Shown here: piece by piece, positions 847 to 62,900 of the stretch
How positions within the stretch are numbered: position 1 is the stretch's first letter
How the letters are laid out: every line of letters begins with the position of its first letter
NCBI GenBank assembly: GCA_032622095.1
Contig: CP136064.1
Location: 264,349,863-264,413,862, forward strand
Direction of reading: 5' to 3'
Length of the DNA stretch: 64,000 nucleotides
From: Siphonodentalium dalli
Lineage: Eukaryota; Mollusca; Scaphopoda; Gadilida; Siphonodentaliidae
Position numbers and translations under genes: made by a program
Notes under the pieces: generated by a model
The model's input: the letters and a program-made list of their open reading frames with translations, nothing else
Databases searched by the model: none
Told to the model about the DNA's origin: nothing

Positions 847-1312
847 ATATGTGACCCGCCATATCAAATCCAGTCGAAAGTCGTGATTTTTTTTACCCTG
901 TGTCAATGCATTCTCTTATATATGCGAGTCGACCATAGGTCGCCTCGCATATATAAGAGAATGCATTGGCCTAACAATTTTTTACAATTTTAATAATTTT
1001 TTCTTGTATTCTTTAACAATTTTATAATTTAACCCATACAGAGCCCCAGACAAACATGAGCAGACGACACTCTTCTATATGCTTCTATTTATGTGTGGGG
1101 CTCCCTGCAGGGTAATGGATGTTTTTTTTTTTTTATGTCCTAGAAATTGTAAGAAACATTTATTTTTAAAAAATGATAAAAAATTGTTAGGCCAATGCAT
1201 TCTCTTATATATGCGAGGCGACCTATGGTCGACTCGCATATATAAGAGAATGCATTGGCACAGGGTAAAAAAATTCCGACTTACGACTGGATTTGATATG
1301 GCGGGTCACATA
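847..1312. mobile_element. Family C twin-hairpin element
   Basis: The ends are inverted repeats beginning ATATGTGACCCGCC and continuing about 45 bp. Inside lie two 68-nt palindromes (about 902-970 and 1193-1260) in opposite orientation, bordered by CCCTGTG and CACAGGG. The hairpins match those of families A, B and D, although these ends are unrelated. The spacer between hairpins is longer than in family A. Confidence 0.75.
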
Positions 1313-1744
1313 TAGAGAGCATGGTGGTTTATCCCCGACGTTGGAATCGGGCCTCTAAAATATAGAGAGCATGCATGGTGTACGTTTGTTGGTGTTCCAG
1401 ACATCCCAGGACGATGTTCAATAAACATGGACTTATATTGAGTTTATTGAGTACCTTAGGTTCGAGTAACTCCAGTATTCTCCTGGTTTTGTTTATTTAT
1501 TGGCTTTTTGCGTCCATTGAGTGTTGATTGGAGGCCGAAGCGCAGATAACATAAACATTTTATATATACTCCAGTAATGTGGTGCAAATAGACCTGTGAT
1601 CCATAATCCTCGATATCCAGTATATTTTTGTTGGAAGGAAACCCAGAAGGTGCTTTGGAAACAGCTACTGTATAATCATGTTATATTTATACATGGGTCT
1701 TCAGGTTCTTCACTGTTACAAGCATAGGGATCCTGCCTGAGTTG

Positions 1745-2141: not shown

Positions 2142-2165
2142 GCCACTTGACGTCGACACGGTCCA

Positions 2166-3255: not shown

Positions 3256-3489
3256 TGATTGAAAATTAGACCATCTACCCCCGTTCATGCGCACGTGCTC
3301 TTATTTTGATTTGATGATATGGGATGCCAACCATACGGTTAGATACTGGATATCGATCAATTTGTAATTCGATTCGATGCTTATAACTGCTAATTGATTG
3401 TAATTGACTGCTAACTTGCCATAATAAATCCACTGGGAGTACTTATCCAAACGCGAAGAAGAAACTTATTTCAATGGGTCTTGTATAGT

Positions 3490-8321: not shown

Positions 8322-8562
8322 TTAACCCTTTCATGATGGGAGCTGTGCTGGTGCAGCATTAAATATCTTGTGCCAGTGCATTCAATTATATATGCAAGTT
8401 TCTCATAGGGAGTCTCGCATATATATGAGAATGCACAGGCTTACATGGTCAGGTAAATATTGTTAGGCCAATGTTTCTCTTTATATATGCAAGGCTTGCA
8501 TATATAAGAGAATGCATTGGCACAGGGTTTTTTTTTACAAGCTGCAATCATGAAAGGGTTAA
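8322..8562. mobile_element. Family B twin-hairpin element, copy 1
   Basis: It is bounded by TTAACCCTTTCATGA and TCATGAAAGGGTTAA, with two TATATATGC-centred hairpins inside. TTAA at both ends fits a piggyBac-type target. Confidence 0.75.
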
Positions 8563-9121
8563 GCCACTTCTACTCCGGCTTAAACTAGAGGTGGGCCTTT
8601 CCCAGTGAGACTAAGGGTACCCCCACAGCTGACCTGTTAAGTTTCATGGTCTGTCTGTGAGTCTCCCGGATAGCCACAGGATGTTATGACCAAAAAAAAG
8701 TTTCCAAAAATAAATTTAATTGTTTTTTTTTTGGAACATTTGTTTTTATAAGTTTAAAAAAAATGTTTTTACCAATATGTCAATATATATACATTGAATA
8801 TGAATGTGCAAAACACATGAGCTCAAAATAATGTGTGAATAATAATCAATTTTTAAGGGTTTTTTTCTAACTTTTTTTTGGCAAGCCAACGGCTTATTCT
8901 CACTTTGCCGACAAGCCTGCAAAAATATCGCCGGCAAGGTGTGATCGTCGCGCCTATAGTCTGTATTAATTAAATAACAGTTTTCCCGGCTCCCGTCTGC
9001 AATGTTGTTTTAGCATGCCGCTAAACGAGTTTCACACGAGTCGTCATCAGATGAGCGATTTTCATGTTCACTCAGTGAAATAGTAGTAAACTGTTATTCG
9101 TATTGAGCGATCGTATTGAGC

Positions 9122-9127
9122 TATAAA
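9122..9127 (+). promoter_or_regulatory. TATA box of the FLYWCH gene
   Basis: TATAAA lies 50 nt before the ATG at 9177. A start about 30 nt downstream would give a short leader of about 20-25 nt. Assigned by position and motif only. Confidence 0.5.
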
Positions 9128-9176
9128 AACCCCATGTCTCTCCAAAGTTGATCATATTCAATGTTCTATCTTCATC

Positions 9177-9680
9177 ATGGCAAGTTCTCAAGTAAATGTA
9201 TTCTTCATCGCCAACGATCGAGGAGGCAAACACCTGGTCTTCAACGACTTCAAATTCCGCATCAAATCACGTCGATCCGAGAATGTCCACTGGGTGTGTT
9301 GTCAGAATGGCTGTGTTATCACCATCAACACAAATAACGAGATAGTTAGTTCTTCAATGGGTCAACACAACCATCTAGCCGATTCTGACCAGGTACGACA
9401 CATGCATTTTCTTATTTCAAATTCTTATAAAGAGCATCCATTCTTCTCTAAACAAAACGCCAGACAATAAAGAGCGTTATAATTAATAATAATATTTAAC
9501 TGATATATCTCTATACAAAAAATAGACATAAAATCTAATTTTATTTCTTTTTAACAGGTTATGGTTGATGCCTTCGTCGCAGATCTCAAGCAGTCTGTCC
9601 GCAGTGGCTCTAGACCCGTGCCGTCTATATACAAAGAGGAAATCGGTAGCCTGAATTATACCGCTCCCGCTCAAAAATGA
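9177..9680 (+). CDS. FLYWCH-type zinc-finger protein, two exons (9177-9392, 9558-9680), MULE-associated
   Basis: Exon 1 (72 codons) starts at ATG 9177 and ends CAG|GTACGA; exon 2 begins after TTTTTAACAG at 9558 and stops at TGA 9678-9680. The intron is in phase 0 and the product is 112 residues. Residues about 10-68 match the FLYWCH zinc finger: GGKHLVF, FKFRIKSRR, then WVCCQNGC and a distal HNH supply the Cys2His2 ligands. The second exon continues with VDAFVADLKQSVRSGSRPVP and IYKEEIGSL, typical of the segment between FLYWCH and the transposase core in MULE-type proteins. Fragments of that transposase follow at 9777-10078, so this is best read as the N-terminus of a broken transposase gene, possibly still making a short zinc-finger protein. 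It has a TATA box upstream and a polyA signal at 10158. Known: FLYWCH fingers bind DNA. Inferred: expression and function. Confidence 0.65.
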
Positions 9681-12372: not shown

Positions 12373-12651
12373 TTAACCCTTTACCCAACAAACCGGCCAA
12401 ATAAAGATTCAACAGCCTAAAATATCTTCGGTCTGTCTCAATAGAACCATACACATATGGATATCATTGGAACCGGCTCCTTGACCACATTGTGATAGAT
12501 ACAGTTATGCCCTGTGCCAATGCATTCTCTTATATATGCGAGTCGACCATAGGTCGCCTTGCATATATAAGAGAATGCATTGGCCTATGGTCGACTCGCA
12601 TATATAAGAGAATGCATTGGCACAGGGCCCTTCTGTTGGGTAAAGGGTTAA
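12373..12651. mobile_element. Family A element, copy 1 (shortened)
   Basis: It runs from TTAACCCTTTACCCAACA to its inverse. The long arm and one full hairpin are present; the second hairpin is reduced to a half, so the element is 279 bp instead of about 400. Confidence 0.8.
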
Positions 12652-20900: not shown

Positions 20901-23900
20901 AAAATCTTAATACGCCCTATTTTTAAAAACAGGTGTATAAAACTATTGACATATATGTTGTGGTAGTGAACCTACATATCAGCTTTTATTCAATTCAGTT
21001 CATTAGAACTAAAGTTATCATCTGGAAATGTAAAATTAAAGGATTGAAAGACCAAAATATAATATGGCCTATTTTTAAAAATGGGCGAATATAACTCTTG
21101 ATACAACTCACCTCTAAAACACAGCCTACGAAGCCGTGGTGGATCTCGACTGATGATGAGACTCTCTGTGTTAGCCTGTCGACTCCTCCCAGGAACAATG
21201 GCTGCTGGAGGTTCAATCCTACAGTCGAACCAACTGTGCTTCCTGTGTAACACAGATATAGATTATTAATATACAGGAATACTGGTGACAAAGTAGATTT
21301 ATACACAATCCAACCTAGCTTATAATTAATATCTCAAGCAATGGGAGACAACCATGATACATGTATCAGAGTTGACTTAGTGGACATCAATTTTGATATG
21401 AACTACAGTAATACCCTAATTAATCGACTCCTTAACCACAGCAGAATTATGGGTAACTTAACGGAAAATATAAATAACGGAAATATGGCTTGTTGCCATT
21501 CATCGGAAGCTCTCGACGAGAGCTTTCCGATGAATGGCAACAAGCCATATTTCCAACTAAATCCTGAAAAGTTGCCCATAATTCTGCTGTGGTTAAGGAG
21601 TCGATTAATTAGGGCATTACTGTATAATTTGCCTACTTACCGGTAAGACAACAATTTAAAGGCCTGGTTTCTGAACCTATCATTAAACTTTTTTCGCATA
21701 TTGTAAAGAAAAAACAAAATGTCGCGACCACACGTACCCTGAAAATCTAAGTCAAGAAAGGGGAATACCTCATCCATATACATATCGCACATTAGCAATA
21801 TATGTGTGATGGACACATGAACGTCCCAACAGTATGAACACTAAAAGTAATTCCAACCATCGTCATTGCATATATTTTGATAATTTCTTATAAAGAGAGC
21901 GTTCCAACTATTCCATAAAAGGATCAATCATGTAATCCTATGAAATATTTACTACAAAACAATATTGTTATGGTATATACTGTGCAAGAAACGACAAAGA
22001 ATACTATCTTATCTTAACCCTTTCAGTGCCAAGCCCGATTTTTGTATCAACCCATATACCCTGTGCCAATGCATTCTCTTATATATGCGAGTCGACCATA
22101 GGTCGCCTCGCATATATAAGAGAATGCATTGGCCTAACAATTTTTCATCATTTGTTATTGTTTTTTACAATTTTTTACAATTTTAATAATTTTTTCTTAT
22201 ATTCTTTAACAGACTTATTTTGTAGGTTTAGTGCCAGGGAATCTTACGTTTTTCATGGGCATCAAAATTATTACTATGAATACTTGGTGATAGTTTTGAG
22301 TTATAACATGCCCCTAAGGTTTTATCCAGTTTGTTTTTAAATTCGCTATAGCATGCTTAAGCATACCCAAATTTTTTTTATTTTTTATTTTTTTTAGGGC
22401 CGATTTTACAAACCATAAATTAGGGCCGATGAGATTGACCCCTGGCACTGAAAGGGTTAATATACTAAATATGGAAGATTGATATTTGAAAGACCTGATG
22501 CGATTAATTTACAATTATATTAAACTAGATATCATTTCTGAACAAAAGGAACTGTAGCATTTCAACAGTCAAAATTATGTTATAGTTTTTTAACAAAATA
22601 GTTTATTTCTAATAACGAAGTTAAATAAAACTTTTGTTGATTTCTTGTGAAAATCACAAAATAATTTAACTGACAGCAAATATCGTGATCTATTAAACTC
22701 ATCAGCTCAAATAGATTCCCTTTGGTGTGAAAATAAATGTTTTTCTCTTGAAAACAAGAAGTGTCTTTCTCCATCTATATGTTTTTTACAATTTTTTACA
22801 ATTTTAATAATTTTTTCTTATATTCTTTAACAGACTTATTTTGTAGGTTTAGTGCCAGGGAATCTTACGTTTTTCATGGGCATCAAAATTATTACTATGA
22901 ATACTTGGTGATAGTTTTGAGTTATAACATGCCCCTAAGGTTTTATCCAGTTTGTTTTTAAATTCGCTATAGCATGCTTAAGCATACCCAAATTTTTATT
23001 TTTTTTTAGGGCCGATTTTACAAACCATAAATTAGGGCCGATGAGATTGGCCCCTGGCACTGAAAGGGTTAATATACTAAATATGGAAGATTGATATTTG
23101 AAAGACCTGATGCGATTAATTTACAATTATATTAAACTAGATATCATTTCTGAACAAAAGGAACTGTAGCATTTCAACAGTCAAAATTATGTTATAGTTT
23201 TTTAACAAAATAGTTTATTTCTAATAACGAAGTTAAATAAAACTTTTGTTGATTTCTTGTGAAAATCACAAAATAATTTAACTGACAGCAAATATCGTGA
23301 TCTATTAAACTCATCAGCTCAAATAGATTCCCTTTGGTGTGAAAATAAATGTTTTTCTCTTGAAAACAAGAAGTGTCTTTCTCCATCTATAAGTTACATC
23401 TGATGTCTCCTTAAAATGATGTGAAACACTCCAATGAGGTGTTAGGCAAGAAGTGTCTTTCTCCATCTATAAGTTACATCTGATGTCTCCTTAAAGTGAT
23501 GTGAAACACTCCAATGAGGTGTTAGGTACGAAATAACAAATAAATCATGCCAAAATAAGTTATTTTCATAAATTTTATATCCAGTCATTGTTATTAACGA
23601 ATTACACACACTGACTATTATTTGCGCAATCATTGTTGTAATGTTTATGCCCAATAATGCGTCCCGAATAAAATAGTAAATATTTACATTTGTGCTTAGT
23701 TCAAACGTTGTGTTCTCTGAAATGGTACAGTCGACATGGTGGGAATTTTCGACATTATTATAGTTTGTTGTTATATTCTTCACACAGAAATAGTGTTTAG
23801 ATACTAACATATCGGGTTTATACACTGAAATAAGTCCATAAGATGTCTTTAAACTTGAAGGTAAATTACTCTAAAATGAATTATTTATTCACTTTTCTGC

Positions 23901-44900: not shown

Positions 44901-47900
44901 AATTTCTGACAATTGGATTGAAAAGATAATAGTATGGTCGTTAGACCCAGAAGAGATTGGTAATGAAGCTGTTTTGGTTTCAAAAGTGCAGACTGGTTTG
45001 CAGAACATTACAGTCAATTCCGCTTTATTGCATAGCGTCGGTGCATGGCCTTTCCCATGCATATAACCGAATATGCATAAAGCCGAAATCACCCCATCAC
45101 CCCATTTGAGGTTCTTAAGATTGTTTAGTTTGTACAGTACGTAGTACCGCGAAATAGCGAAATCATTAGATTGCTGTATCATATTTTCATCTCATACCTT
45201 GTTGTAAATTACTATTATGTCAATAAACTGATTCATTAACATCTTTATTTGTTGTTACATGTATAAAATGATTACATACCATCATTATCACACACAAAAA
45301 ACATTAAGAAAAAAACCCATTTCAAAACGTGTTGTTTAATTTCTCCCATCCCATAATTTCTATTCCCTATCTATTTATAGATAGATAAATACATTGTATG
45401 GGAGGCCAGACCAAACACATTCCTTGTTATTTCCATTACAGAATGGATTTGTATTTAAACGAACATGATAAAAACAGCAAAAACAACAATTACTTGTTGC
45501 TGATTCCCTCCGTCACCTGCATGGGCATTATCGGAACGGTATATTCAGCGTCATCATCAGATTCTGCATCGGGAGCTGCGGGTCGGATAAAACCCGAGAA
45601 TAAATCATAGTGAACCATTGTTATACTAATGAGTTGAAATCATTGAATAAACACGACACACATGGTGTTGGGATGAAAAACAAAGACAGTGTTGTTTTAG
45701 CCTTTGTGTCTAACTTGGGGAAACAGTGACGTCAACCAGTTGTTCAGTTAATGATAAGCCATCCCGTTATTTCTATACTAAATATGTAAACATGTTTCTA
45801 TTCATTAAATTATTGTCGGTAATTCTTGTATCTATAGTCTATAGTAGTCTATAGTTTATATCAATGTTCAGACTTAATCCGATCAGGAAAATATTAAACC
45901 CGGTGCTTTATTCGTGATCCGTTGTCCACATAGAGGATGTTACAATAGCGACTAATTGCTTGTTTAACAAAAGCCAGTAAGTGTAATTAATTAACAGTAC
46001 AAAATGTACTGACAAAAGACAGTTGTATTTCTGCTGGTATGGAAAAGCACGTGTTTATACTGTAAAATGTGAACAAAATGTAGTTTAAAAATATTAATGT
46101 CGATAACCTTTATTTTTGTTTCGAGTGTCTAACGTTGACGTAGTTTGGAAAACATGGTTGTTGAATGACAATTTTCCCCTTCTGTCCCATTATTATACCC
46201 ACTGTGTGTTTACATAACGAGGAAGCCAGTTCTTTGTGTTTCGCCACATGTAGGAACATACCGACGTTGTCACTGAACACGAAAAATGTTTTTACAGTAC
46301 GGTTGTTGGACAGGCGTGCTTTGCACGCGCAAGCAACTCATGTTTACCGCGTTTTCAGCTATACGCCGTTAGAGATTGGGTTCTAAATGAGATTTTAAGA
46401 TTGAAATGTTTCGAAACAGGAAATGTTTGAACAGAAGCATGTTAGAAGAAATAGAAAAGCATGTTAGTTTTGGTTTCGGTTTAGTAATTGGCTTCCTTGT
46501 TGGTGGAATTCCCGGGAAAATCTTCTTTTCACTTTGAATCCTCAGAATTGCAACTAGAACTTCAGGTTTTTACAAACTCAACAAACAACCAAATAAATAT
46601 ACAAATTTAAATAAATCATGCAATTCAAAAATAAATATGGAAACATACAGGAAATGAGTGTCAACAGAAGCTTGTTAATGAGAAGAGATAGAAAACCACG
46701 TGTGTTATGAAATCGAAAATTGCCGTCTTCGCTCGCGATGGTCATCTTCATCAACTTTGTATTAAGTTTTCCCATAAAATACGTTTTTCAAGGTAAATAG
46801 TTTTACAAATTGCTATAATTTCGGCACCATGAGGTGACTTTTTACTCCTTCTCATCAACATTTTTGGCGATTTTCGTATGCATAAAAACGGAATAGAGTC
46901 CGACCCTTATGCAAATAAACGATTAAAAATTGTCTTTTTATGAGAAAATGGTTTGGTGCATGCATATTTTATGCAAATAGCCGAAATATGCATTTAAACG
47001 ATATGCAATTAACTGGAATTGACTGTATATACAAAATCCACTTTGGGGAACATTCCCAAATTCATCACGGCATCCAAAATGGCAGTTGGTATCAGAAAAT
47101 GCTAAATTTCTGCAATAGGTGGATCAATTAATGCCAAATTCGTAATAAATTGAAATACACACAACAATGCTTAGTCGTAAACCATATCTGTAGAATGTCT
47201 GTCCCAAAATGGCCGCAAAAATGTACAAAATTTAATAGGTAGTCATTAAAGAGTAAACATGCTCAAATTATGTGAGGAAGAATGATTGCCGAGTATAAGA
47301 GAATCTTTTGAACAGAGATGCACAAATGGGATGCTAATCTATTGAAAAGATCAATGTTTCTTTACAGTGTAATAAGCATTGAGACATATGTGTATGGCTT
47401 ATTATCATGGATGGTGTTGAAAATTATGGAAATGTAACAAGTGTTTATACCACAGGGTATGCACTTCAGTTTCTGCATTACATTGAACAATTAATCACCA
47501 TGCTGAATTAACCCTTTACCCAACAAACCGGCCAAAACCGGCCAAATAAAGCTTCAACAGCCTAAAATATCTTCGGTCTGTCTCAATAGAACCATACACA
47601 TATAGATATCATTGGAACCGGCTCCTTGACCACATTGTGATAGTTACAGTTATGCCCTGTGCCAATGCATTCTCTTATATATGCGAGTCGACCATAGGTC
47701 GCCTCGCATATATAAGAGAATGCATTGGCCTAAAAAAAATCTTTTTTAACACTTTTTACCGTTTTTTCTTACATTCTTTAACAATTTTATAATTTTTAAT
47801 GTGTTGAGCCAATGCATTCTCTTATATATGCGAGGCGACCTATGGTCGACTCGCATATATAAGAGAATGCATTGGCACAGGGCCCTTCTGTTGGGTAAAG

Positions 47901-50900
47901 GGTTAAACTACCATGCACTATGTGGAGAAACATTACTTTGTGTGTTGCATGCCCGAAATTATTATTTTTGGCCCAACTGTTGGATGTATTCTAAGCAGTA
48001 AACTCAAACTTTAAAGGCGTAGCTCATTGGGGTTTGACTTGGCTTGCAGTGACCGATAAATTTTTCCGATGGATATGTTTTAAGATCTGTGTACCTTTAA
48101 ATATATTTAACAACAGACTTGTATATTACCAATACGTATTTTCACTCCTTGGTAGTTATCCAATATGTTGCTTTTCTCATGGCATGGCTTGGAGTTGCTG
48201 TCACTTTGACAGCCACTTCATGGCCACGATTATGTTATTTTTTGTCCATTTAAAATGGAACTATATTTTTTCTTGAAGGTATCCTTACTTCCTCTTTTGG
48301 TTGTGATAAGAAAATAAATATTAATATTTTTAAACCCCAGCCGTATCAAGATCATTTTCCTTGCTAAAATGCGATTTGGTGATAAAAAGAATTCATTGCA
48401 TTTCTATACAAAATTTATTAACCTCGTCCAATAAATTCATTTCAAGCCTCGCGAATCAAATTTGGTGCACTCAGTTAATAAATTTTGTATAGAATTGCGA
48501 CTCATTAGAGATCCTCTATTTATAACTGATGGGAGAATCCATTTAGTAATGAAAGGGTTAAGAAGAGAACAAACCTGTGGCAATACACTCCAGCTCGACC
48601 CTGTCTCCGACTTCGACCACTGATTTTGTTGAGACTATCTCTGTTGTTCCAGTACTTCCTCCTGTAATCAAAATTTAACAAATCTCATCTTAATATTCGG
48701 AAATTAGCACAAACTAAAAATATGTAGCATTTGCCATACATAGATGGTGTGGTTCAAAGAATTGTGTCTGGAGTATGCCAAACTTATTTTCCATATTTGG
48801 TATGTATTTTCCAATATTGAACAGTTTGGAACCTTACCAGCCTGGAAATAGTGTGTCTGACATTTGTAGAATGAGATCCCAAGAGGTTGAATTTAGTGAC
48901 ACCATCCTGCGCAGTGGGCTAGCATAACCAAATTCACCTCTGGGAATCTCATTCTGCTTAGGCCTCAAATGCTATAGGAGACGTAGAATCAAATTGAAGT
49001 TCCCCAGTTAAAAAGTTTGTGATGTTCACTCATCAGTCGCCTCGATTATGCATTTTATCTTCTGCAAATTAGGGGATATAGAAACTGAACAGTAGGGAAG
49101 AATTAACTAAAAGTAATGTTAATTTGAGACCATAGATACTTCCCAGAAGTTGAGGCCTAAGTAGAATGAGGTCCCCAGAGGATTAATTTTATGTGATGCT
49201 GGCATGCTCAGTCGATCAGTGGTCACTATATAAGGAGATGTATCAGTTGTAATCTTCATTGTAAGGTGTGATAATCTCAAAATCACAACCGGAATCAAAT
49301 TAACATTTGAGGAAACCTGACGATGTTTTCACAACAGTCAGCAATCAGACTGAGGTGTGAACATGCTTCCAGATTAGATCAATACAGGTGTTAGTTGTTT
49401 TATAACACCCTAACAGCAACTTGCAATTTGCCGACTGCAAAATTAGGCCGAAATGAGCCAGAATAGGTCAAAGAAGTGGCCCTCTCGGCTGGTTCCTGGT
49501 GTGATGGAACAGTTAAATGCTTACCATCAATTCTGAGGTAGGTGACTTCTCTAGATGATGCTGCCTCATTTGTTGCAGTACAGATGTATCTACCTTCATC
49601 CTCCTTCTGTACATCATACAACCTGCATAATAAATACAAACCATGAGTCGAGTGAGTACTTACAAATGTACGTCATACTACCTGCACAATAAATACAAAC
49701 CATGAGTCGGGTGTGTACTTACAAATGTAGTCATACTACCTGCACAATAAAAACAAACCATGAGTCGAGTGAGTACTTACAAATGTACGTCATACTACCT
49801 GCACAATAAAAACAAACCATGAGTCGAGTGAGTACTTACAAATGTACGTCAAACAACCTGCACAATATATTCAAACCATGACGAGTGTAGTTAAAAATGT
49901 ATGTTGTACAATCTGCACAATAAAATCAACTGCTATAAATGTACCAGGTAGTGACAGGCACCTTATTAAGCGGTAAACAAGTTGTAAAGCAAAACGTTTG
50001 TATGGACGATTTTATAGATGGAAGTATTGTGTATTTATCATGTATCTAAATAAGATAATACGAAGTGACTTACGTTAGAATTCCATTTCTGAGTTCATGC
50101 CGGGGAGGCAGAGTGCCACCTTCCTTCTCCCATCTAATTGTTGGGGTTGGCGTGCCACTTGCTGAGCATCTGAATTCAACTGTTGAACCTGGGTACCTAG
50201 TGTCTGATCTTGGCGATATCTGGATGGTTGGTGAAACTGGAATAGAAAGTTACAAACTACATTGTAATTAAAGTCGAATGTTTGTTGCAGAAACACGCAT
50301 TCTGATTGGCCAAAAACGGCTAACTTTTTCATCAGCATCGGTCACTGATCGGAAGACAAATTTAGAAAAATGGTGAATAGCATCATTGGCAACGTGCGTT
50401 AAATACGTCACTGTGCTGTCGTGTAACAGTCAAACGTAACATTGTTTTCTATAGAGTTAACAGGAAGTTGTTCTGGAGCTGTTAAGAGTAACCACATGGA
50501 ACGTACCCAGATATTTGATCACAGCAAAAAGGATATCTCACTTCAAAGCAAGTAATGTCTGTAAAAAGTGTCTTTCATGAAGTTTCTTAAAAAAATTTGG
50601 TGAAATGAATTACAATAGAGATAAACGTAAATGTTGAGTTGGATTTCGGGAAAAACAATTATGGCTCGCATCTCAAGATCACCCTGAAAATCCATATGAA
50701 GTTTGGGGATGGTCGGAAGAGAGATGTGACCTCTAGGGTGTGCTAACAGAAATTGTTAATGGATGCATACACAGACGTACGGATGCCAATAGCTCAAACT
50801 TGAATTTGTCAAGTTGAGATAATAAACCAATCGAATGTATACTTTTATAACTGAATGATAGTATCCATAAGATGGCAAAAGTTCAATGATAACACCTTTA

Positions 50901-53900
50901 TAAACACATAAAGCCTTTATCAAGTGAAATGATTATGATTATGATTTCACTTGATAAAGCTTCACAGAAGGCCGAAAGATTATGCACATTAAACACTAAT
51001 GAGTCTATAAAGGTGTCAACATTTAATTCCTGCCATCATATAACTTGATTAACCCTTTACCCAACAAACCGGCCAAAACCGGCCAAATAAAGCTTCAACA
51101 GCCTAAAATATCTTTGGTCTGCCTCAATAGAACCATACATATATGGATATCATTGGAACCGGCTCCTTGACCACATTGTGATAGTTACAGTTATGCCCTG
51201 TGCCAATGCATTCTCTTATATATGCGAGTCGACCATAGGTCGCCTCGCATATATAAGAGAATGCATTGGCCTAAAAAAATATTTTTTTAACACTTTTTAC
51301 CATTTTTTCTTACATTCTTTAACAATTTTATAATTTTTAATGTGTTAAGCCAATGCATTCTCTTATATATGCGAGGCGACCTATGGTCGACTCGCATATA
51401 TAAGAGAATGCATTGGCACAGGGCCCTTCTGTTGGGTAAAGACTCCTACAGCTATACATATACATCATCGTTATAGGATAATCCATTCAGTATAGAAAGG
51501 GTCAAAGGGAATACCTACCAAGAACCCTAACTCTAGCATAAGCCTCGGTTTTTCCAGCTGGACTGTCCACAGTACACCTATATCTACCAGAATCTGCTGC
51601 CGTCACTCTTGAAATCTCCAGCACACTGTTAACAATTCTCGCATACTGAGACAGAGAATCACCCGGTTTGTCCCACTCATAGTTGAAAGGCCCGGCGCCT
51701 TGTGCTTGGCAGTTGAGTCGAAGCGTCTCTCCAACCCTTGTGGTAACATCTTGTGGTGAGATAATCGGCCTTTGAATTGCTAGTGTGAAATAGAAAGTAA
51801 AATAATGAACAAGAGATTCATGAGTAGAAGCAAGCCTGTGTTTAATGTGCCTGTCATTTGCAGAATGAGGTCCCCAGAGGGTGAATTTAGTGATTTTAGA
51901 AGAATCTATGTGAAGAAATTTCTATAGAAATTTTATATCAAAGAAACAGAAGATGAGGCCTAAGCAGAATGAGGTCCCCAGAAGAGGAATTTAGTGATGC
52001 TATCCCACATAGTGGGCTAGCATCACCAAATTCACCCTCTGGGGACCTCATTCTACATGGCCTCATTTGCTGTGGGAGACATAGACTCAGATCGAAGTTC
52101 CCAAATGGTGAATATTGTGATGTACACCCATTGGGAAACTCAGTTATGCAATGTGTGATCTGCCAATTTGAGGATACAGAGAAACTAAACTAAAAAAGAA
52201 ATATAGAAATTTAATAATAAAGAAACTTTCCAGAGAAGATGAGGCCTAAGCAGAATGAGGCCCCCAGAGGGTGAATTTAGTGATGCTAGCCAGTTATGCG
52301 GGATAGCATCACTACATTCACCCTCGGGGGACCTCATTCTGCAAATGACAGGCACACTAAACTCAGGCTTGAGTAGAAGCCATGATTCAAATCGGATTAT
52401 GTTTGTTAACCCTTTCGCGACGAGAGTTGCGTTGGTGCAGCATTAAAGATCATGTGCCAGTACATTTTCTTATATATGCGAGTCACCCATAGGGACCCTC
52501 GCATATATAAGGAAATGCACTGGCTTACAAGGTCAAGGTAAATAAATTTAGGCGAATGTGTTCACTTATGTATGCGTGGCTGCCTATGGGAGACTCGCAT
52601 GTATAAGAGAATGCAGTGGCACAGAGTTTTCGAAAAATTTCAGGAAGCTCCAGTCATGGAAGGGATAAAGTTATCGCAGTTATGTTGCAACACAGACAGA
52701 CAGATGGATGCCCACAAATAAGATTTTTTGAATGTATTAGAACGGCAATGATGAGGAACTTCATGATACGAAGTGCATCGCGATTATTTTGTGACAATGC
52801 AATGCAGAATGTCTAATTGTCACTGACAGTTAATGTTTCATATCTCTTCCATTAATCAAAATAAAAGATAGAATATTAAGGTTGAGAAATTAGTACTAGT
52901 AGTTATTTCATAAAGTGTGGTGCATCATATCATCCATTTTACGACATGCCAAAAACAGATGTAATGGCCAATCTTCATTTCCGTCGTGTATTGATATTTT
53001 TTCTTCCAACAAAGAGTCAATTATTTTGTTGGGTGTTGAATCGTGGTGGGGCTAAACCACGAAATCAACAAATAATAGACCCCCACGAATTAAAAGGATT
53101 TTACAGTATAAGTTTTCATATGATTACTTACATCTAATAATAACAAACACGGAGCTCTCAAATGATCCTGTAGGTGTTCTGGCAATACAGATGTATTCTC
53201 CAGAATATTCTGAGCTGATTGACGGGATAAACAGAATGCCGTTCTCTAGGGTGTGCTCCGGTGGCAGGTTGCCTTCTCTCCTTCTCCACCTCAGCTGTGG
53301 TGAAATCAGACCTGTCAATATAGAGAGGTGGCAAAATAAGATGAGATTTAGGCAAAATAAATTAAAATACTGTGTTTGAGAAAGCAGCAGCTAGTTTTCA
53401 CAAAGTTTTTTTGGGGTAGAACTTCCAAAGACAGGCAGGCTATGATGAAAATCTTGAAATTTCAGATTATCCTAAAGAAACTGGAGGTTTCATAAAACAC
53501 TTTTGAGCTAGACCTTTCAAAGACATGCAGCTATGATGATAATCTTGAAATATCAGATTATCCTAAAGAAACTGGAGGTTTCATTAAGTTTTTTTGGGGT
53601 AGACCTTCTGAAGACAGGCAGACTATGATGAAAATCTTGAAATTTCAGATTATCCTAAAGAAACTGGAGGTTTCATAAAACAATTTTGAGCTAGACTTTT
53701 CAAAGACATGCAGGCTATGATGAAAATCTTGAAATATCAGATTATCCTAAAGAAACTGGAGGTTTCATTAAGTTTTTTGGGGGTAGACCTTCCGAAGACA
53801 GGCAGACTATGATGAAAATCTTGAAATTTCAGATTATCCTAAAGAAACTGGAGGTTTCATAAAACAATTTTGAGCTAGACCTTTCAAAGACGGGCAGGCT

Positions 53901-56900
53901 ATGATGAAAATCTTGAAATATCAGATTATCCTGGAGGTTTCATTAAGTTTTTTTGGGGTAGACCTTCTGAAGACATGCAGGCCATGATGAAAATCTTGAA
54001 ATTTCAGATTATCCTAAAGAAACTGGAGGTTTCATAAAACAATTTTGAGCTAGACCTTTCAAAGACGGGCAGGCTATGATGAAAATCTTGAAATATCAGA
54101 TTATCCTAAAGAAGCTGGAGGTTTCATTAAGTTTTTTTGGGGTAGACCTTCTGAAGACAGGCAGACTATGATGAAAATCTTGAAATATCAGATTATCCTA
54201 AAGAAGCTGGAGGTTTCATTAAGTTTTTTTGGGGTAGACCTTCCGAAGACATGCAGGCCATGATGAAAATCTTAAAGATTATCCTAAAGAAACTGGAGGG
54301 GAGACTCTCCAAGGCAGTAAGGATACCTCCCACCATGCAATTGAGCTACAGTAAGGTTAGCCTTCTTAACATATTTATTTTTCGAAAATGACAGAAGAAA
54401 TACAAGCTCTGACCATATGATGCATGTTACGACCAAATTTTAAGTCGAAAAAAAGTAAGATCGAGCTCATAATTGCAAATGCACAAGTTCGCATCATGAT
54501 ATATATCTGGAAAAAATTATGTATGTTGCAAAAATTTATAAGTCAAACAACGGGGATGACTCAACTAAAAAAAATCGGAAGGACCTCATAATCGCAGGTT
54601 CACACAACACTAAATATCTGTGCCAAGTTTAAAAACAATTGACTGAAAAATGTAAGAATGAATACAAGCTCGGCCAAGCTGATTCCTAGTTTTGTTATGG
54701 GGAGCTTAATAATTTGATAAAAACTTACCACTGGCTGTGCACACCAGTTCTAGATTCTGTCCAGCTTGAATGTTCATTCTCTCTGAGCCAGAAATGATCA
54801 CACCTCTCTCTTCAGAAGGCTCACCGTCATTAACTATGAGTGAGAAAAAATGTCATGGTTTATAAAATAATAAATATGAATTGAGGACACCTGCATGTCT
54901 GGAAAGGCTTCTAACAATTAATATTGATCAGATTTCAAATTTTGTGGTATAGTATACAATCAATTGAGACAATTTACGGCTCACGTTCGTTTGGAGTGTA
55001 CCATGTGGGATAACTCTATTTAAAATTCTAAAAATAGTTTCGAAAAAATGTCCCACTTTATTATCACATTATACAAGAAAATATTGATATCAAATAAATA
55101 TTAATTGATAAGCATTTCTTCGATTCATATCTATTATTTTATTCCATGAATACTATATAAAAAACGATATTTTCCTGCATGTCATGTTTGTCACCCCGTC
55201 ATTTTGATGGGCAAACCCCTATTTATATAATAATAATAATCTTTTGCAACATTTTCAGTGTTATATCTGTTATATATCTTATTTCTGTTACATCTCAAAT
55301 GATACTTAGTATTAGTAGGTACTCACAGGTTCCAAATGAGTGTACATGTAAAGTAATGCCCTAAATAAACGACTCTTTAACCACAGCAGAATTATGGGTG
55401 ACTTTTCAAGATTGAGTCGGAAATATGGCTTGTTGCCATTCATCGGAAAGCTCTCACTAAGAGCTTTCCGATGAATGGCAACAAGCCATATTTCCGACTA
55501 AATCCTGAAAAGTTACCCATAATTCTGCTGTCGTTAAGGAGTCGATTATTTAGGGCATTACTGTACGCTTATTAATTTTCATGAAAAAATCCACCCTGTA
55601 CAGTCCTTATTTGGGTCTGTACGTTTATTAATTTTTCCGAAAAACTCTGTTGAATTAACTGAATCTGTTTGTCATTTATAAAATAATATGGATAATTTGT
55701 ACTGTATAGTTCTAAAGATGTTATCCCAATTCAAAAGTAGAGCACACGGGTATGCAAACAATTCTTGGAAACGGGCTGTTAATTAAAAATAGCCTGCGAT
55801 GTTTACCTCAGCAAGTGACATCTGGCATGTGGACATTATATCGTGATAATCTGACATAATTTTTTTGCAGGAACACCGATCAGTCGATTTATATTTGGTG
55901 CCAGGGTTTCTTCACATTGGTGGCAAATAAATAACTAGTACTTATAGCGTGAGTTAGAAAAGAAATGTGTGCACATATATGTGCACATGTACATTAACCC
56001 TTTACCCAACAGAAGGGCCCTGTGCCAATGCATTCTCTTATATATGCGAGTCGACCATAGGTCGCCTCGCATATATAAGAGAATGCATTGGCTTAACACA
56101 TTAAAAATTATAAAATTGTTAAAGAATGTAAGAAAAAAATGGTAAAAAGTGTTAAAAAAAGATTTATTTTAGGCCAATGCATTCTCTTATATATGCGAGG
56201 CAACCTATGGTCGACTCGCATATATAAGAGAATGCATTGGCACAGGGCATAACTGTAACTATCACAATGTGGTCAAGGAGCCGGTTCCAATGATATCCAT
56301 ATTTGAATGGTTCTATTGAGACAGACCGAAGATATTTTAGGCTGTTGAAGCTTTATTTGGCCGGTTATGACCGGTTTGTTGGGTAAAGGGTTAAGCTGTC
56401 ATTTTGTGACACTGGAATAATATATAGCAACCACTTGTGTACAGTTGAGGCTGACTCCCCTAGAGCAGTAATGAATGCGTCCATGCAGACAACTGTTTGG
56501 GTGCTTCGAGGAGCATGTGTACACTTAATAGCACTGTAATTAGTGTAAATATTTTGTGGTATTAAGAGTATTTATCATTGTATTATGGCGACTGGTGAGC
56601 GATTGCAGAATTTAATTATTATTTTGAAGTAATCCGTCAGAAACATATGGATAACAGTTTTAAAAATATTATTTGAAGAGATGTTTTTATTCATTCCCAT
56701 CAGAAAATTGGGCAGGAGGAAAAAATACGCTCCGGGGAGTCCCTGTCCCATCAGTACAGAGTTGGCATTCCCGTTTATATCATTTCTCATACTTTAATTA
56801 TGAAGTACCGCAGTTCTATTCCAGGCTATTTTGACGTTTCGCAGTGTTCTATTGATGTTCATAACCATGTCGCTCCACTTCCTTTTGACATAAAATATGT

Positions 56901-59900
56901 TTTATTAAAATTTTATATGGTTTTTCAATTTTTATAGTCGGCCTGAGTCAGCAATTTGGAATTTTTTGGCAGGCGGATTTGTAAACTAACAAACATAGAT
57001 TCTCTCGCTTCACTTACCAACAATCTGTACACGGTCTTCAGTTGTTCCGGCTTCATTTGTTGCTACACAGATATAAGTTCCGGCATCTGTTCTCTGAATC
57101 CTCTCGAAGATTAGATGGCCCGATCCGAACTCTTTTGCCGTCGAAAGAATTGGGATGTCTCCACGATCCAAGGAGGCGGGTGGAGCTTTCCATTCCACAG
57201 ATGGAAGAGGATCGCCCTCGGCAGAGCATTCAATGGATACCCTTTCTCCGACGACCGTTGTGATGAACTTACTTGGTACAATTGTAACCTTTGGTGGACC
57301 TGTGAATTTGAGACATTTATGATTGAGAACAGCTGACAAAATGTTTCATATGTTGTGCATCTATGGTAGAGGTAAAATTTAAGGTTGTAATAGTATAGTT
57401 TATAATAGTATTATGATACAACCCCATTGAGAGAGACACATACAAACTTTAGCCCTAATCAAATAACCCTACTGGAGTTATCGCCTTATCGGTCAGATAC
57501 CAATATATTATCAAATAAGGTAACTTCTAAGTCTAAAAGAGCCATTTAGTCATTTGAGAAAATTCATATTCAAAAATGAACTGTATATTTGGTCAAGAAA
57601 AACACACACCATATCCAGTTCCGATTAAATAATCCAAACTGGAGTTATTGGTCGGAAACGGACAAACTAAACAACATATTAATACAACAATTTTTTTCAA
57701 AACGGGCATATGACAAATGAGTCACAGGAATAGACTTGCACAAGCTTGGCATTTAAAAGTCACAATGAACAGAGCAGGCTACACATTACTGACCCAGTTT
57801 GAATCATCCAAAAACAAACTTGACAATGCCATTAACTCTTTGTCTCTCGGATCATACCCAGCCTGCTGTCTATCACAATCAGGCATGAACATATGGCTAT
57901 TTGCAGAATGATGTCCCCATAGGGTGAATTTAGTGATGCTTCCCCAGAGTCAGCTAGCATCACTAACTTCACCTTCTGGGGACCTCATTCTGCTTAGGCT
58001 ACTTCTCTGGAATGTATTTTTATTATCAAATTAACAAGTATTTTAGTTTCTTTAGAAAGTTTCTTTTTCTTTTTTAGTTTAGTTTCTCTATATCCCCAAA
58101 TTGGCAGACGACACAATGCATAATCAAGGTGCCAATGGGCGCACATCACCATCTTCACCATCTGGGATCTTAAATCGGTGTCTAGGTCTTCCATAGCAGA
58201 ATGAGATACCCAGAGGATGAATTTGGTGATGGTAGCCTGCTGTGGGGGATAGTCACTAAATTCACCCTCTGGGGACCTCATTCTGCAAATGTCCCGCATC
58301 CTGAATTAATATATTAGCCCACCTTGTACAGATAAAGTAGCGGTAGCTGTAACGGTTCCTGCATCATTTGTAGCTGTGCAAACGTATCCACCCTGTTCCT
58401 CGCCAGTCACTTTCTCAAACATGAGCACACCGTTGCCCTCCATGATCTTTACTGTTGAAGGAATTGGCCCATTGTCGGCTCTGTTAAAAATAAAACAAAA
58501 TTTCATTTAAAATAGAAAACTAAAGTCTGTAATATCACTGCTACTAAGGGGCGATTACATTTATTACCCTGGGTTACAATAGGTAAATTACCCTGGGCAA
58601 AAGTGAATGGAATGATTTTTGGTGAGCGGAGTAATTTAAAAATAGCACAGTTACAACTGCAAACAAAACATAATTTTTTATTTAGGAAATTTGACAAAAC
58701 TCACATTGGGCGTGTCTAACAGACAAAGACTTAAGTAAATGAGCAAAAATAACTGATATTCACAATGAAACTAACGAGAATTTTTATTTTATCGAACAAG
58801 CAAAATACCTAATTTTAGAACAACCTTGACACTAAGTATCTAAAACTTTGGATAAATAGTTTTAACTGTCATTCAATTTAATTATATATTTCTGAATTAT
58901 ATATTACTTATTTATGACAAATTTTACAAAATAAGATTCATTTAATCCATTACATAAATATTTTCCATGTGCTTTCTCAGTTGACAACCACCTTCGTGGG
59001 AAAGTGACGTCACATTACAATACGCTCGAAATTACACCACCTTGGCCGTAGGTGTAGCGAGCATAGCCCGGCGTATTTACGCCCGGCCATTCTATTCATA
59101 CTGCTTAGGCATCACCATCTGGGAAGTATCTATATATATATAGTCTCAAATTAACACTGTTTTTAGTTACTTCTATATCCTCAGGCCCTAATTTGCAGAA
59201 GATAAAATGCATAATCGAGGCGACTAATGGGTGAACATCACTAACTTCAACTGGGGAACTTCAATCTGATCCTAGGTCTCCCATAGCAGTTAAGTCCAAG
59301 CAGAATGAGGTTCCCTTAGGGTGAATTTAGTTATGCTAGTCCACCTTGAAGGATAGCGTCACTAATCTCCCTCTGGGGACCTAATTCTGCAAATTACAAG
59401 CACACCATTGCCTTCCATGATCTTTACTATTGAATCATGAATTGGCCCATTGTCTGCTCTGTTAAAAATAGAACAAATTTCATTTCAAATGAAAAACTGT
59501 AATATCACTGCTACTAAGTTAGGGCAGAATGAGTAATATTAACCCTTTCAGTGCCAAGTCCAATTTTTGTATCAACCCATATTTCCTTGATCATTTTTCA
59601 AATTTATTGATTATAATAATGTGATACATTGATGGAAAGAGCTCTAAGAGTGGTTAAGGAGTCGATTAATTAGAGTTTAGTTTATATACAGTAATGCTCT
59701 AATTAATCGACTCCTTAACCACAGCAGAATTATGGGTAACTTTTCAGGATTTAGTCGGAAATATGGATTGTTGCCATGGCAACAAGCCATATTTCCGACT
59801 AAATCCTGAAAGTTACCCATAATTCTGCTGTGGTTAAGGAGTCGATTAATTAGAGCATTAATTACTGTATATAAACTAGACCAAATTCAATGCTTGTGTA

Positions 59901-62900
59901 AATTATATCTGTATATCAGTTATTTTTCTATCCAATTTCAGTACCGGTAAGCACAGAAATGTAAAACACTGCAGCTGGATCCTAAAACTCCATTTTGTGG
60001 ACAATTAGACAGTTGTTGGTCGTGGTATTATTATTTTATACATGTATTATACAAACCTAGCCCATGAGACAGTTGGTGACGGTATTCCCTTATTAACTCT
60101 ACACTGTATCCATGCACTGCCACCTGGTGACAGTGATTTGGTTGGGCCTGGATACAGCTCGATCTCAGGAATTTCAAGAGCTGAAACATAAGAGCGATAC
60201 ATCATCAGATCTCGAGAGATTTCAATCACCCACAATATAAACACCTCAAAAAAGTAAGATCCCCCCTGATATATTACACTTTATTACACACTTATAGGTG
60301 ATTTATAATGATTTCTCAGTAAACTAAAAGTCGTAATGTCTACACGATTTACACATATCACCAGCAATATTCACATAATGCCAGTCCAAGTGTCAGCTCT
60401 TTCGGCACAAATATTCAGTTAATATCCTGTATATTACAGATTTTTGAAAAAGATATCCCACAATAATGAGGTCAAATGGAATCATTTAGTCACAAATACA
60501 GTAATACCCCTAAATAATCGACTCCTTAACCACAGAAGAATTATGGGTAATTTTTCAGGATTTAGTTGGAAATATGGCTTGTTGCCATTCATCGGAAAGC
60601 TCTCACTGAGCCTAGCACATATAAAAGGATGCACTGGCTTACAAGGTCATGGCAAATAATGTTAGGCCAATGCATTCTCTTATATATGTGAGACTCCCTA
60701 TGGGAGACTCGCATATATAAGAGAATGCAATCGCACAGGTTTTTGCAAAATTCCAGGAAGCTCCAGTCATGGACGGGTTAAATATAAAGGTTACCACAAT
60801 TTTGTAACATATTATCTTTAGAATTAGAGCCTTTTAATGGTAGAAATTGTGTAATAGACAGAATAATCAATTGTTTTGAGGTTTATATGACATAATTCAC
60901 TCTGGAAGTCGGTGCCCTCATTGTAACAAGTCAACACTGGATTCAATACTGCCAATTCAGCATGCAGTAGATTATGAATGTCATATTTTTTGGCAAAATT
61001 GTAAACCACAGCGGAAATAAGGCCTAGTCTTTAACCTTTCATGACGGGAGCTGTGCTGGGAAATTAACCCTTTACCCAACAGAAGGGCCCTGTGCCAATG
61101 CATTCTCTTATATATGCGAGTCGACCATAGGTCGCCTCGCATATATAAGAGAATGCATTGGCTTAACACATTAAAAATTGTTAAAGAATGTAAGAAAAAA
61201 TGGTAAAAAAAGATTTTTTTAGGCCAATGCATTCTCTTATATATGCGAGGCGACCTATGGTCGACTCGCATATATAAGAGAATGCATTGGCACAGGGCAT
61301 AACTGTAACCATCACAATGTGGTCAATGAGCCGGTTCCAATGATATCCATATTTGTATGGTTTTATTGAGACAGACCGAAGATATTTTAGGCTGTTGAAG
61401 CTTTATTTGGGCGTTTTTGGCCGTTTTGTTGGGTCTGAGAAATTTGAAAAGCATACCTGCGCACAGTTTTGAATTATTTTATATTCTGGAGCACACGTCA
61501 ATGAAGCATTTCAACCCAAGATCAGTTAACTCTGGGCTTAACCCTTTCATGACGGAAGCTGCCTGGTGACTCACATACATAAAAGAATGCATTGGCACAG
61601 GGTTTTAGCAAATTTCAGGAAGCTCCAGTCATGGAAGAGTCAATCAATGATACATACCCTGTACATCGACCATGACCGAGGCCATGGCTGACCCGGCAAT
61701 GCTCTCAGCAGTACACACATAAATGTCTCTGTCTGCCATGGTAGCATCATTGATTCTAAGTGTATTACCAACCACCTGTAAAACATAGGTAAAAAGTTTA
61801 TATTACATGATTCTGCCCTTATTCCATTCAATAAACCCATTCTATAAATTGTGATATTAAACGATTGTTTAATAACAGGAAATAGTTCCAGAAGACATTT
61901 GACTTCCAGTTTGTCATCTGTTAACATTCCGTACGCTATGTCTCAAAATACTATGGCTTCCAATATTTTCCCAACAAACTATCACGAATGAAGTGTTTGA
62001 AAAGTTATGTCATTAAATATACGCCATTAAATACGCCTTAGAGTCTTTTTTTATCTGGGACTATTTCTTTACGCGGGCTAACAATGAATAGTTACGTGAA
62101 ACGTCATCGCATGCCTTATAGAAACCGATGTTAGTTCGCGTCCCATTTGTTGATTTAAGTATGTTTTGGATAATGTAATAAATATAATCTACAACTCGTC
62201 CCCAGTTTATAGCGGAAATTACAAAACTCGTCCAGTAAATTAGGTCTGGACGTCGACAAAGGCTCGGTCCAGACCTAAATTACTGGACTCGTTTTGTAAA
62301 TTCCACTATAAACTGAGGACTCGTTGTAGATCCTCTATCATGGTTCATACATATACCTTTGAACAAAATTCCATAACTTTTACATACCTTTTCCAGACTT
62401 CCTGATCATTTTTTCAAGACTTTTCAATGAACAAATTCAATAACTTTCCCATACGTCACATCAGGGAATTTGAAAAAAAAATTGGGAAAGACTTTACAAT
62501 TTCCTTATTTTGAAAAGGTCACTGGAATTAGTGTTCGAATTATAGGAAGATGAGTGTCTATTGTGTTTACCATCCATAAAGTCTACGCTTTTATATGTTT
62601 TCATGGTTGATCACCGTGGCCTCCCCCATGTTTGCAGCCCTTTTAATTCAGATTGTTTGGCTTCGGCAATCTGCTACGGCAACCCTTTATCGTGGCCCAG
62701 TTTGCTTCAGCAAATGGCTTCGGCATTGCCGATTGCCGTAGCCAATTATGAGGGCTGCTGCAGTGATATATTATCCCTGAACAAACAGTTGCCAGTCATT
62801 TAGACATCATGTAAGTAATCAAAACTGATATTTTATATTATTCCATGACTTTTCAAGACCTTCTCCCAGTCCCCCACCAATTTTCAAGACCTTTTCCATA

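Follow-up and report, generated by a model that had tools for sequence, protein, structure and literature searches.

MITE families are usually told apart by their ends, and the bodies tend to be regarded as disposable filler. The closest described elements are the CMITEs of Acropora corals: TTAA MITEs with different TIRs around a shared 75-nt internal region (Wang et al. 2010, PMC2872659). The same source gives the terminal motif CC[C/T]T as a piggyBac-type hallmark, and template switching into TIR elements has been described in animals (PMC8277862).

The window analysed here (64,000 nucleotides of the Siphonodentalium dalli genome, contig CP136064.1, positions 264,349,863 to 264,413,862) contains element families A, B, C and D, in which different terminal regions (shells) surround one hairpin-bearing body (the cassette). 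The original prediction was that the four families share this core and that no family with such a modular layout had been described. The shell ends and the arm were confirmed where they had been placed, all above shuffles. The claim of novelty was anticipated by the coral CMITEs (PMC2872659): the arrangement by which CMITEs are recognised, a conserved internal region bounded by differing TIRs, was found here as well. No description of the present elements was found in a literature search; sequence strings are rarely indexed, hence this is weak evidence of absence.

A hairpin cassette shared by families with unrelated shells

The 20-nt arm CCAATGCATTCTCTTATATA matched the window 66 times with up to 3 mismatches (shuffle mean 0.03), and chance palindromes were rejected on this count. 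In the 2.23-Gb genome the exact 33-mer CCCTGTGCCAATGCATTCTCTTATATATGCGAG (CCCTGTG plus the arm) was present in 123,995 copies (62,106 + 61,889), and the reversed pattern, used as a control, in 0. The hairpin, first taken to be 68 nt long, measured 67 nt, with 32-nt arms on either side of a 3-nt centre (ATA) and one conserved T·C mismatch. Folded as single-strand DNA, it reached -33.2 kcal/mol (z = -14.2). It had no match in Rfam at the gathering threshold, and an exact 21-mer of the arm was absent from the viral and prokaryote contigs searched. Hairpin 2 is the reverse complement of hairpin 1, so that the complete cassette (CCCTGTG...CACAGGG) forms a single inverted repeat. The second, opposite palindrome predicted for A, B and C was found, and one B element has three hairpins (28038-28390).

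Shell-end matches in the window numbered 18 for A, 15 for B, 2 for C (at 847 and 1300) and 6 for D, with up to 3 mismatches allowed for A and D and up to 2 for B and C (shuffle means at most 0.12 each). The elements are listed in Table 1. In the window, the hairpins of B are older and have diverged further, and a single B element may carry more than two.

Table 1. Cassette-related elements and features of the window
Feature	Position	Strand	Remarks
Family C	847..1313		4-bp ATAT duplications; TIR GTGACCCGCC...; cassette 896-1265; extra nested segment between its hairpins
Family B (old)	8322..8562		two diverged hairpins
Family A	12373..12651	+	internal deletion between hairpins
Family D1	22014..22460	+	D left end, one hairpin, AT spacer, D right part
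Family A	27536..27935	+	full cassette (27683-27911)
67-nt hairpin 1, reference copy	27690..27756	+	hairpin 2 at 27838-27904, opposite orientation
Family B	28038..28390		three hairpins; right end approximate
Family A	30157..30556	-	full cassette
Family B (old)	30605..30855		
Family A	33395..33793	+	full cassette
Family A	35851..36239	-	full cassette
Family B	40850..41402		host of the A insertion 40951..41340
Family A	40951..41340	+	at TTAA within a hairpin of the B element 40850-41402
Family A	47508..47906	+	full cassette
Family A	51049..51450	+	right end damaged (true end near 51442)
Family B (old)	52406..52668		
Family A	55994..56394	-	full cassette
D0 half-element	59539..59648	+	D end without cassette, runs into D0 palindrome; end approximate
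Family B fragment	60618..60781		one whole and one partial hairpin
Family A	61064..61425	-	one end truncated

Assignment of hairpins to shells by the nearest end was unreliable because of nested and neighbouring elements, and consensuses were compared instead, with the mirrored loci L045, L093, L094 and L095 excluded. Counted from CCCTGTG, the consensus sequences of A-left (61 copies), A-right (59), C (40) and D1 (17) were identical for 74 nt, and B-left (18) and B-right (13) differed from them at 4 and 8 of these positions, respectively. The four hairpin positions at which B-left differs make up two compensated pairs, 29-39 and 30-38. The AT-rich spacer inside the hairpin pair matched in 6/6 pairs among A-left, C, D1 and the young B copy L098 (1,000 dinucleotide shuffles per pair, of which 0 or 1 scored as well); spacer divergence in the consensus comparison was inflated by length variants.

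Ten pairs of shells (A-left, B, C and D1 ends; A-right was left out) were compared without TTAACCCTTT. B-left/B-right, which carry the same TIR, alone clearly beat the shuffles, and the C/D1 likeness was weak (7/300 shuffles scored as well). These comparisons, together with 4-bp duplications in C as against TTAA (see below), support the proposed split of cassette and shell: the terminal repeats show no clear likeness beyond TTAACCCTTT.

It is very unlikely that a single element gave rise to A, B, C and D and that their ends alone drifted as TIRs tracked different transposases. Such a history would fit the TTAACCCTTT that starts A, B and D and the spacer common to A, B, C and D1. However, C belongs to a different target-duplication class, the shell arms (~30-145 bp) retain no clear likeness although the bodies are identical, and a cassette-free form, D0, joins the D end to a wholly different body, on which ground D as a mere TIR-drift variant was rejected. 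The shells do not all look like descendants of one ancestor by TIR drift, the case that the original prediction had set against modularity. Formal trees are precluded by the near-identity of the cassettes and by shells that cannot be aligned.

Insertion sites, junctions and flanks

Families A, B and D carry CCCTTT at both ends in matching inverted repeats, in agreement with the piggyBac-type CC[C/T]T hallmark, and their intact copies (A, B, D0 and D1) have TTAA at both ends; damaged copies are also present. Among C elements with both ends placed, 12/16 have identical flanks of at least 4 bp (ATAT, ATTT or AAAT), or 10/14 after the mirror-image loci L045 and L093 are dropped. A TTAA duplication, expected of a piggyBac-type MITE, was seen in 0/16. 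Most C copies were retrieved with a pattern starting ATAT, so that the search itself partly imposed the ATAT flanks; among four C loci located through their hairpins (mirror copy dropped), three had ATTT on both sides and L099 had no clean duplication.

Genome matches to piggyBac transposases numbered 128, many with open frames. Of the 24 loci examined, 7 had a TTAACCCTTT end other than A, B or D nearby, and 0/24 had a hairpin or a shell end of A, B or D in the 1.5 kb that flank the transposase domain on each side.

The junctions are of six types (A-left, A-right, C, D1, B-left and B-right), and all begin at CCCTGTG or CCTGTG. Visual inspection for microhomology suggested a possible overlap of CC(C) at A-right and showed none at D1.

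The 123,995 exact copies were sorted by their flanks. G precedes 80,334 (as in A), TTA precedes 21,092 (as in C), and C stands at position -2 in only 445. Among 100 listed copies of the last kind, 97 read CA or CG, one transition away from the shell dinucleotides TA/TG, and are likely point mutants of shell flanks. STA precedes the arm in 383 copies (GTA in 78 of 100 listed), and the fetched GTA sites L041 and L087/L093 lie within C shells. By this flank test, which took up a search outside TIR shells proposed at the outset, almost no cassettes occur outside known shell contexts. In four of the 20 hairpin-picked loci (two cases, L081/L082 and L084/L095) no shell could be recognised on one side or on either, a share that is overstated since these loci were chosen after known A, C and D places had been excluded.

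That the cassette is or was a transposon in its own right (ends CCCTGTGCC...GGCACAGGG), which entered the founding copies of A, C and D, is a reading that we regard as rather unlikely, and as present activity it is disfavoured. It would account for every junction starting at the same base or one later, for the CCC...GGG of C lying between TTTTTTTA and TAAAAAAA and that of D following CATATA, as if the target were TA, and for L084/L095, where the cassette sits in otherwise unshelled DNA. The rarity of C at -2 and the position of the GTA sites speak against it, as does the lack of any visible target duplication in A or B. Diverse insertion sites with target duplications, expected of an independent transposon, did not emerge from the flank test, with two possible exceptions among the hairpin-picked loci, and insertion at TA at the present time was rejected on the same flank counts. 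Of the earlier idea that the cassette moves between shells, the genome-wide split of cassette and shell is supported, and a cassette that is itself still mobile is not supported.

Family histories and the origin of the cassette

The A, C and D samples were collected on C1 with exact shell or junction strings (C loci were chosen by hand), and the hairpin-picked loci by exact matching to the hairpin, restricted to the beginning of C1. The genome contains about 34,000 A copies whose left end is exact, and all 40 of the 40 copies picked by shell end alone had the cassette junction, some with internal deletions. In 21 genomic A left arms the next two bases are both non-C; of the 20 fetched, 19 retain hairpin pieces and one enters unrelated DNA. 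No cassette-free A was found among the genomic A left arms checked, a hidden family of this kind was rejected on these arms, and no cassette-free C occurred among 19 hand-picked C loci.

Family D exists in two forms. The D1 junction has 12,957 exact genome copies and the D0 junction 10,152, often two per element. D0 is a palindromic MITE of ~215 bp without cassette, the first 44 bp of which are nearly those of D1. The fetched D0 loci lacked the hairpin in 10/10 cases and diverge from D1 past ...GTATCAACCCATAT (L107 and L108 have common flanks and count as one; L110 ends at the fetched edge). D1 against D0 thus presents inner sequence from elsewhere beside a surviving form lacking it, the pattern by which Pack-TIRs are recognised.

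Old-type B hairpins differ from the nearer reference at 3 to 15 of 67 positions (the set includes the tandem copies L008 and L009), compared with singletons of 0.4-0.8% in A hairpins, in keeping with a greater age of B. L006 and L098 are young-type B copies.

It is extremely improbable that the copy count was inflated by assembly duplication. Mirror-image duplicate loci do occur on C1 (L084/L095, L086/L094 and L087/L093), as do D0 loci with the same flanks (L107, L108) and evenly spaced tandem units, but flanks differ among the ten A insertions of the window and private mutations separate 39 aligned A copies.

Taken together, the shared body, the unrelated shells, the two classes of insertion, the D end found both bare of the body and joined to it, the near-absence of free cassettes in the flank test and the compensated pairs are probably best explained by capture of a B-lineage body by at least three other ends, each chimaera having been amplified by the transposase of its own shell. 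The cassette (two subterminal hairpins and an AT-rich spacer) would be the interior of B, an old MITE lineage of piggyBac type that inserts at TTAA. It would have been captured at least three times, by A and D1 (TTAA ends) and by C (the 4-bp-duplicating class), after which each chimaeric founder would have multiplied to thousands of copies through a transposase recognising its shell, presumably of piggyBac type for the TTAA shells. B as the source is suggested by its divergence, the spacer match and the young-type copies L006 and L098, rather than by a rooted tree. Capture would most likely have proceeded at the hairpin, a site at which replication tends to stall, through template switching or the filling of a gap. 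Random template switching would scatter the junctions, which all lie at CCCTGTG or CCTGTG, so a fixed-ended unit may once have inserted. Hairpin pairing was retained as the body evolved, either for function or through palindrome copying.

A less likely alternative is that the hairpins are portable and promote amplification in cis (through transposase binding, replication stalling or transcription from the TATATAAG motifs) and that the shells which acquired them won. The pairing is maintained through the two compensated pairs, and the aligned A copies show non-singleton (subfamily-type) mismatches in 56/4,860 left-arm cells vs 3/5,034 hairpin cells (39 copies; L028, without right end, was dropped and the hairpin 2 window was shifted by one base). 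Paired CRDs of piggyBac-type transposases bind subterminal palindromes (PMC11707139), and MITE mobility is altered by internal sequence in mPing (PMC9921582). However, cassette-free D0 likewise reached thousands of copies, and C is not a TTAA element, which makes it unlikely that one piggyBac transposase uses the hairpin in both classes. Hairpin 1 of A shows no fewer singletons than the left arm, and stronger conservation of the hairpin after insertion was rejected for this reason. Arm-to-arm copying could also preserve pairing without function, although the conserved T-C mismatch speaks mildly against copying. The stronger form, in which any DNA transposon end would be amplified more once it had gained the module, whatever its transposase superfamily and with pairing under selection, is doubtful.

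Comparison with described elements

In the captured-body reading, conservation lies in the body, and the ends can be exchanged, across two insertion classes. One shell with the body (D1) and without it (D0) is abundant in the same genome, and this pair, together with the A copies, offers good material on how MITEs acquire bodies and on body-driven amplification.

Several described systems share single features with these elements, as far as the available text of each source goes. In Pack-TIRs, the ends of DNA transposons gain inner sequence by template switching (the FoSTeST/gap-filling model) and may amplify it; their filler is non-TE or gene sequence, whereas that of the present elements would be another transposon's body and has one common boundary in several shells (PMC8277862). 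MER6, a mariner MITE with a SINE V domain, likewise shows a conserved module that crosses unrelated transposon kinds and rides the burst of its new host, but that module is retroposon-derived and hairpins are not mentioned in the text available, unlike the twin hairpins here (PMC6887750). Foldback4 has palindromic ends and shuffled, repeated inner modules, which vary within one family, whereas here one body is common to families with different ends (PMC2955051). The ends of piggyBac and piggyBat also bear subterminal palindromes, and piggyBac targets TTAA; these palindromes are ~14-19 bp long and transposase-bound, in contrast to the 67-nt hairpins here (PMC11707139).

By description, the CMITEs come closest. 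They share with the present elements TTAA, piggyBac-type CCCTTT ends, a conserved internal region (75 nt in CMITEs, 67-74 nt here), tandem arrays (here L048 and L009) and a region of unknown origin. In the available text, CMITEs are ~100 bp long, insert at TTAA only, are estimated at ~1,600 copies in A. millepora and are described without mention of a hairpin, whereas the present elements have twin hairpins, an additional non-TTAA shell and 124,000 exact arm copies. The hairpins, the second TSD class and the scale are thus what is new relative to the CMITEs.

A common hairpin body within four kinds of ends

The genome containing the window (position G000:C4:264349863-264413862) comprises 2.23 Gb in 9 contigs. 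In the window, the hairpin arm CCAATGCATTCTCTTATATA was found 66 times at up to 3 mismatches (0.03 expected), and all four predicted kinds of element ends (shells A, B, C and D) were present. The core hairpin of 67 nt (CCAATGCATTCTCTTATATATGCGAGTCGACC-ATA-GGTCGCCTCGCATATATAAGAGAATGCATTGG) is paired at 31 of 32 positions, the exception being a T·C mismatch, and folds as single-stranded DNA at -33.2 kcal/mol (shuffle mean -5.4, z = -14.2). A second hairpin lies in opposite orientation, so that the entire cassette CCCTGTG...CACAGGG is a single inverted repeat; the RNA fold of a whole A element was a single long stem (-206 kcal/mol, z = -25).

The original prediction, that the four families carry the same core within terminal repeats sharing nothing beyond CCCTTT, was borne out as far as clear similarity goes. 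Over the first 74 nt, one identical consensus was obtained for A-left, A-right, C and D1 (the D end with cassette), from which B-left differs at 4 positions and B-right at 8. The AT-rich spacers just inside the hairpin of A-left, C, D1 and a young B copy (L098) matched in 6 of 6 pairs, each match being equalled by 0 or 1 in 1,000 dinucleotide shuffles; this strengthens the case for a shared body. Outside CCCTGTG, no clear alignment beyond TTAACCCTTT was found in ten shell pairs compared with shuffles (A-right not among them): only B-left/B-right, which are the same TIR, clearly beat the shuffles, and C/D1 was marginal (equalled by 7 of 300 shuffles), which T runs may explain. The MITE system is real, modular and very abundant.

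Shells A, B and D sit in TTAA. None of the 16 C copies with both ends placed did so, and 12 (10 of 14 without two mirror-image duplicates) had identical flanks of at least 4 bp (ATAT, ATTT, AAAT). Most of the 16 were retrieved by a pattern starting with ATAT, so the ATAT flank is forced and this line of evidence is weakened. Among the four C loci found via the hairpin, ATTT stood on both sides in L087, L090 and L092, and L099 was without a clean duplication. C is an element of a different kind from A, B and D. Nineteen C loci were picked by hand among sites with an exact shell end, and every one carried at least part of the cassette (the twentieth region fetched was an A element). Between the C hairpins in the window there is a further mosaic segment with CCC ends (...AGCCCC...GGGGCT...); it also occurs in L081, L082 and L050, in the last from ~521, directly adjoining the cassette end.

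Features of the window and of contig C1
Feature	Location	Strand	Basis
Open frames, I-set immunoglobulin and laminin G domains	window 51502-51921, 57010-57345, 32751-33215	minus	domain matches
Open frame, FLYWCH zinc finger	window 9120-9470	plus	domain match
Mosaic segment between C hairpins	window ~1030-1115		
A element inserted within a hairpin of an older B-type element	window 40951-41340		
Evenly spaced exact arms, ~14,558 bp apart	G000:C1:735735-779403		
Evenly spaced exact arms, ~11,175 bp apart	G000:C1:842600-920823		

We take the I-set/laminin G frames to be, perhaps, exons of a perlecan-like gene with cassette elements in its introns.

Copy number and elements with and without the cassette

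The 33-mer of CCCTGTG plus arm has 123,995 exact genome copies (control 0). Sorted by preceding bases, 80,334 were of A type (G) and 21,092 of C type (TTA). D1 accounts for at most 12,957 (exact junctions genome-wide, 22-mer pattern, whole arm not required); by subtraction, a residue of ~9,600 or more is left, presumably B and mutated forms. Independent counts of exact shell ends gave 34,306 for A left ends and 14,786 for C, where one element can contribute two. The evenly spaced arms on C1 are probably tandem arrays of long units.

The D end also occurs without the cassette (D0), as a nearly perfect palindromic TTAA MITE with 10,152 exact junctions, often two per element. Its length was 214-215 bp in 6 of 9 measurable copies, 224 bp in one and 149 bp in two sharing flanks; in L101-L109 nearly the whole length of the MITE (~215 bp) is inverted repeat. 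The hairpin was absent from 10 of 10 fetched D0 loci. Over their first 44 bp, up to GTATCAACCCATAT, D1 and D0 hardly differ, after which D1 runs ACCCTGTGCC..., hairpin, spacer, then another D right part. Among ten D1 loci, selected by the junction of GTATCAACCCATAT to ACCCTGTGCC, L118 was identical to D0 over the 44 bp, five had 1-3 differences and four a one-base deletion.

In all forty A copies chosen by left end alone, shell and cassette meet at one common junction; some copies are internally deleted, and 39 had the right end. In 21 genomic A left arms neither of the next two bases is C; of the 20 read, 19 kept parts of the hairpin and resemble products of local deletion or mutation, and one (L143) runs into unrelated DNA. 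No cassette-free earlier form of A was found in these 40 copies and 20 deviating arms.

A search for the cassette outside TIR shells returned almost nothing by flanks, and two cases lacking a shell on at least one side. Randomly placed cassettes should often show C at position -2, which was seen in 445 of 123,995 exact copies; among the 100 listed, the dinucleotide was CA or CG in 97, as expected of point mutants of the shell TA and TG. The arm was preceded by STA in 383 places (among 100 listed, 78 had GTA), and the GTA places fetched (L041, L087/L093) were C shells. Twenty hairpin-picked loci comprised 9 A, 5 C, 2 B and four in which one side or both had no recognisable shell, a share overstated by leaving out places known as A, C or D; the four represent the two cases (L084/L095, mirror images; L081/L082, common flanks). 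At present the cassette hardly moves by itself. Mirror-image pairs including flanks (L084/L095, L086/L094 and L087/L093, C1 ~1.7-1.8 Mb and 3.5-3.7 Mb; L044/L045, near 12.5 Mb) are either inverted duplications or assembly duplicates. A recurrent palindromic repeat, GCAGAATGAGGT...CCTCATTCTGC, lies near cassettes in L057, L100, L115 and L116.

Divergence and pairing of the hairpins

Singleton differences in 39 A copies were similar everywhere (left arm 0.56%, hairpin 1 0.84%, hairpin 2 0.44%, spacer 0.98%), so single copies were not protected after insertion. Non-singleton, subfamily-type differences numbered 56 per 4,860 left-arm cells versus 3 per 5,034 hairpin cells; the hairpin therefore hardly changed in the A lineages that bred.

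Old-type B hairpins (29 rows, tandem copies included) had 3 to 15 differences in 67 from the nearer of two references, in a search limited to 16; B is the older family. The four hairpin positions that changed between B-left and the A/C/D1 consensus pair with one another, as 29-39 (T·A to G·C) and 30-38 (C·G to A·T); by our arithmetic, four random hits in 67 would do so in ~6.5 of 10,000 cases. In B-right one more pair is altered, 4-64 (G·C against A·T), and 23-45 is a wobble. Counting each distinct hairpin once, 56 of 58 young and 14 of 17 old ones retain the T·C mismatch at 27-41. The compensated changes indicate that pairing was kept while sequence changed, via selection or arm-to-arm copying.

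B-type hairpins stand in tandem with a 97-bp period in L008 and L009 (seven in a row in L009, 1993 to 2575). A and C elements lie within hairpins of older B-type elements in the window (an A element there), L046 and L056; insertion may favour hairpins, whose arm contains TTAA or ATAT.

Origin, amplification and known systems

One body occurs in at least four shells and two insertion classes, the D end exists with and without it, amplification was of founder type, and pairing was kept. B, with hairpins near both ends, would be the source of the body: it is oldest, and some B copies combine young hairpins with long spacers (L006 and L098, the L098 spacer matching A-left, C and D1). From B the body probably passed to other ends by a template switch at the hairpin or by the filling of a gap there, the model proposed for Pack-TIR elements (TIR elements with acquired inner sequence) in PMC8277862. 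Deletions starting or ending within hairpins among the fetched loci fit a stall-prone site. Every junction type begins with CCCTGTG or CCTGTG, which counts against a free-ended process, and insertion of a fixed-ended unit in the ancient past is a possible alternative to such capture. A, B and D would most simply have been amplified by piggyBac transposases, whose domain has 128 genome matches, many with open frames. Among 24 piggyBac loci examined, TTAACCCTTT ends lay near 7, and an A, B or D end or hairpin within 1.5 kb of none.

According to PMC11707139, piggyBac-type transposases bind subterminal palindromes via paired cysteine-rich domains; such binding is one way in which a palindrome could help, a reason unlikely to hold for C. 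The original prediction put forward dsRNA production, promoter activity and a mobilisation advantage as candidate roles. The original prediction, that no described family has this modular layout, was not right. The closest precedent found is CMITE, from two corals, described in PMC2872659 as TTAA MITEs whose CCCTTT-type ends differ between families and whose 75-nt internal region, of unknown origin and perhaps important for transposition, is common; the likeness is one of layout. Judged by the literature searches, what is new here is the hairpins and their compensated changes, the spread into a second insertion class, the existence of D0 beside D1, and the scale.
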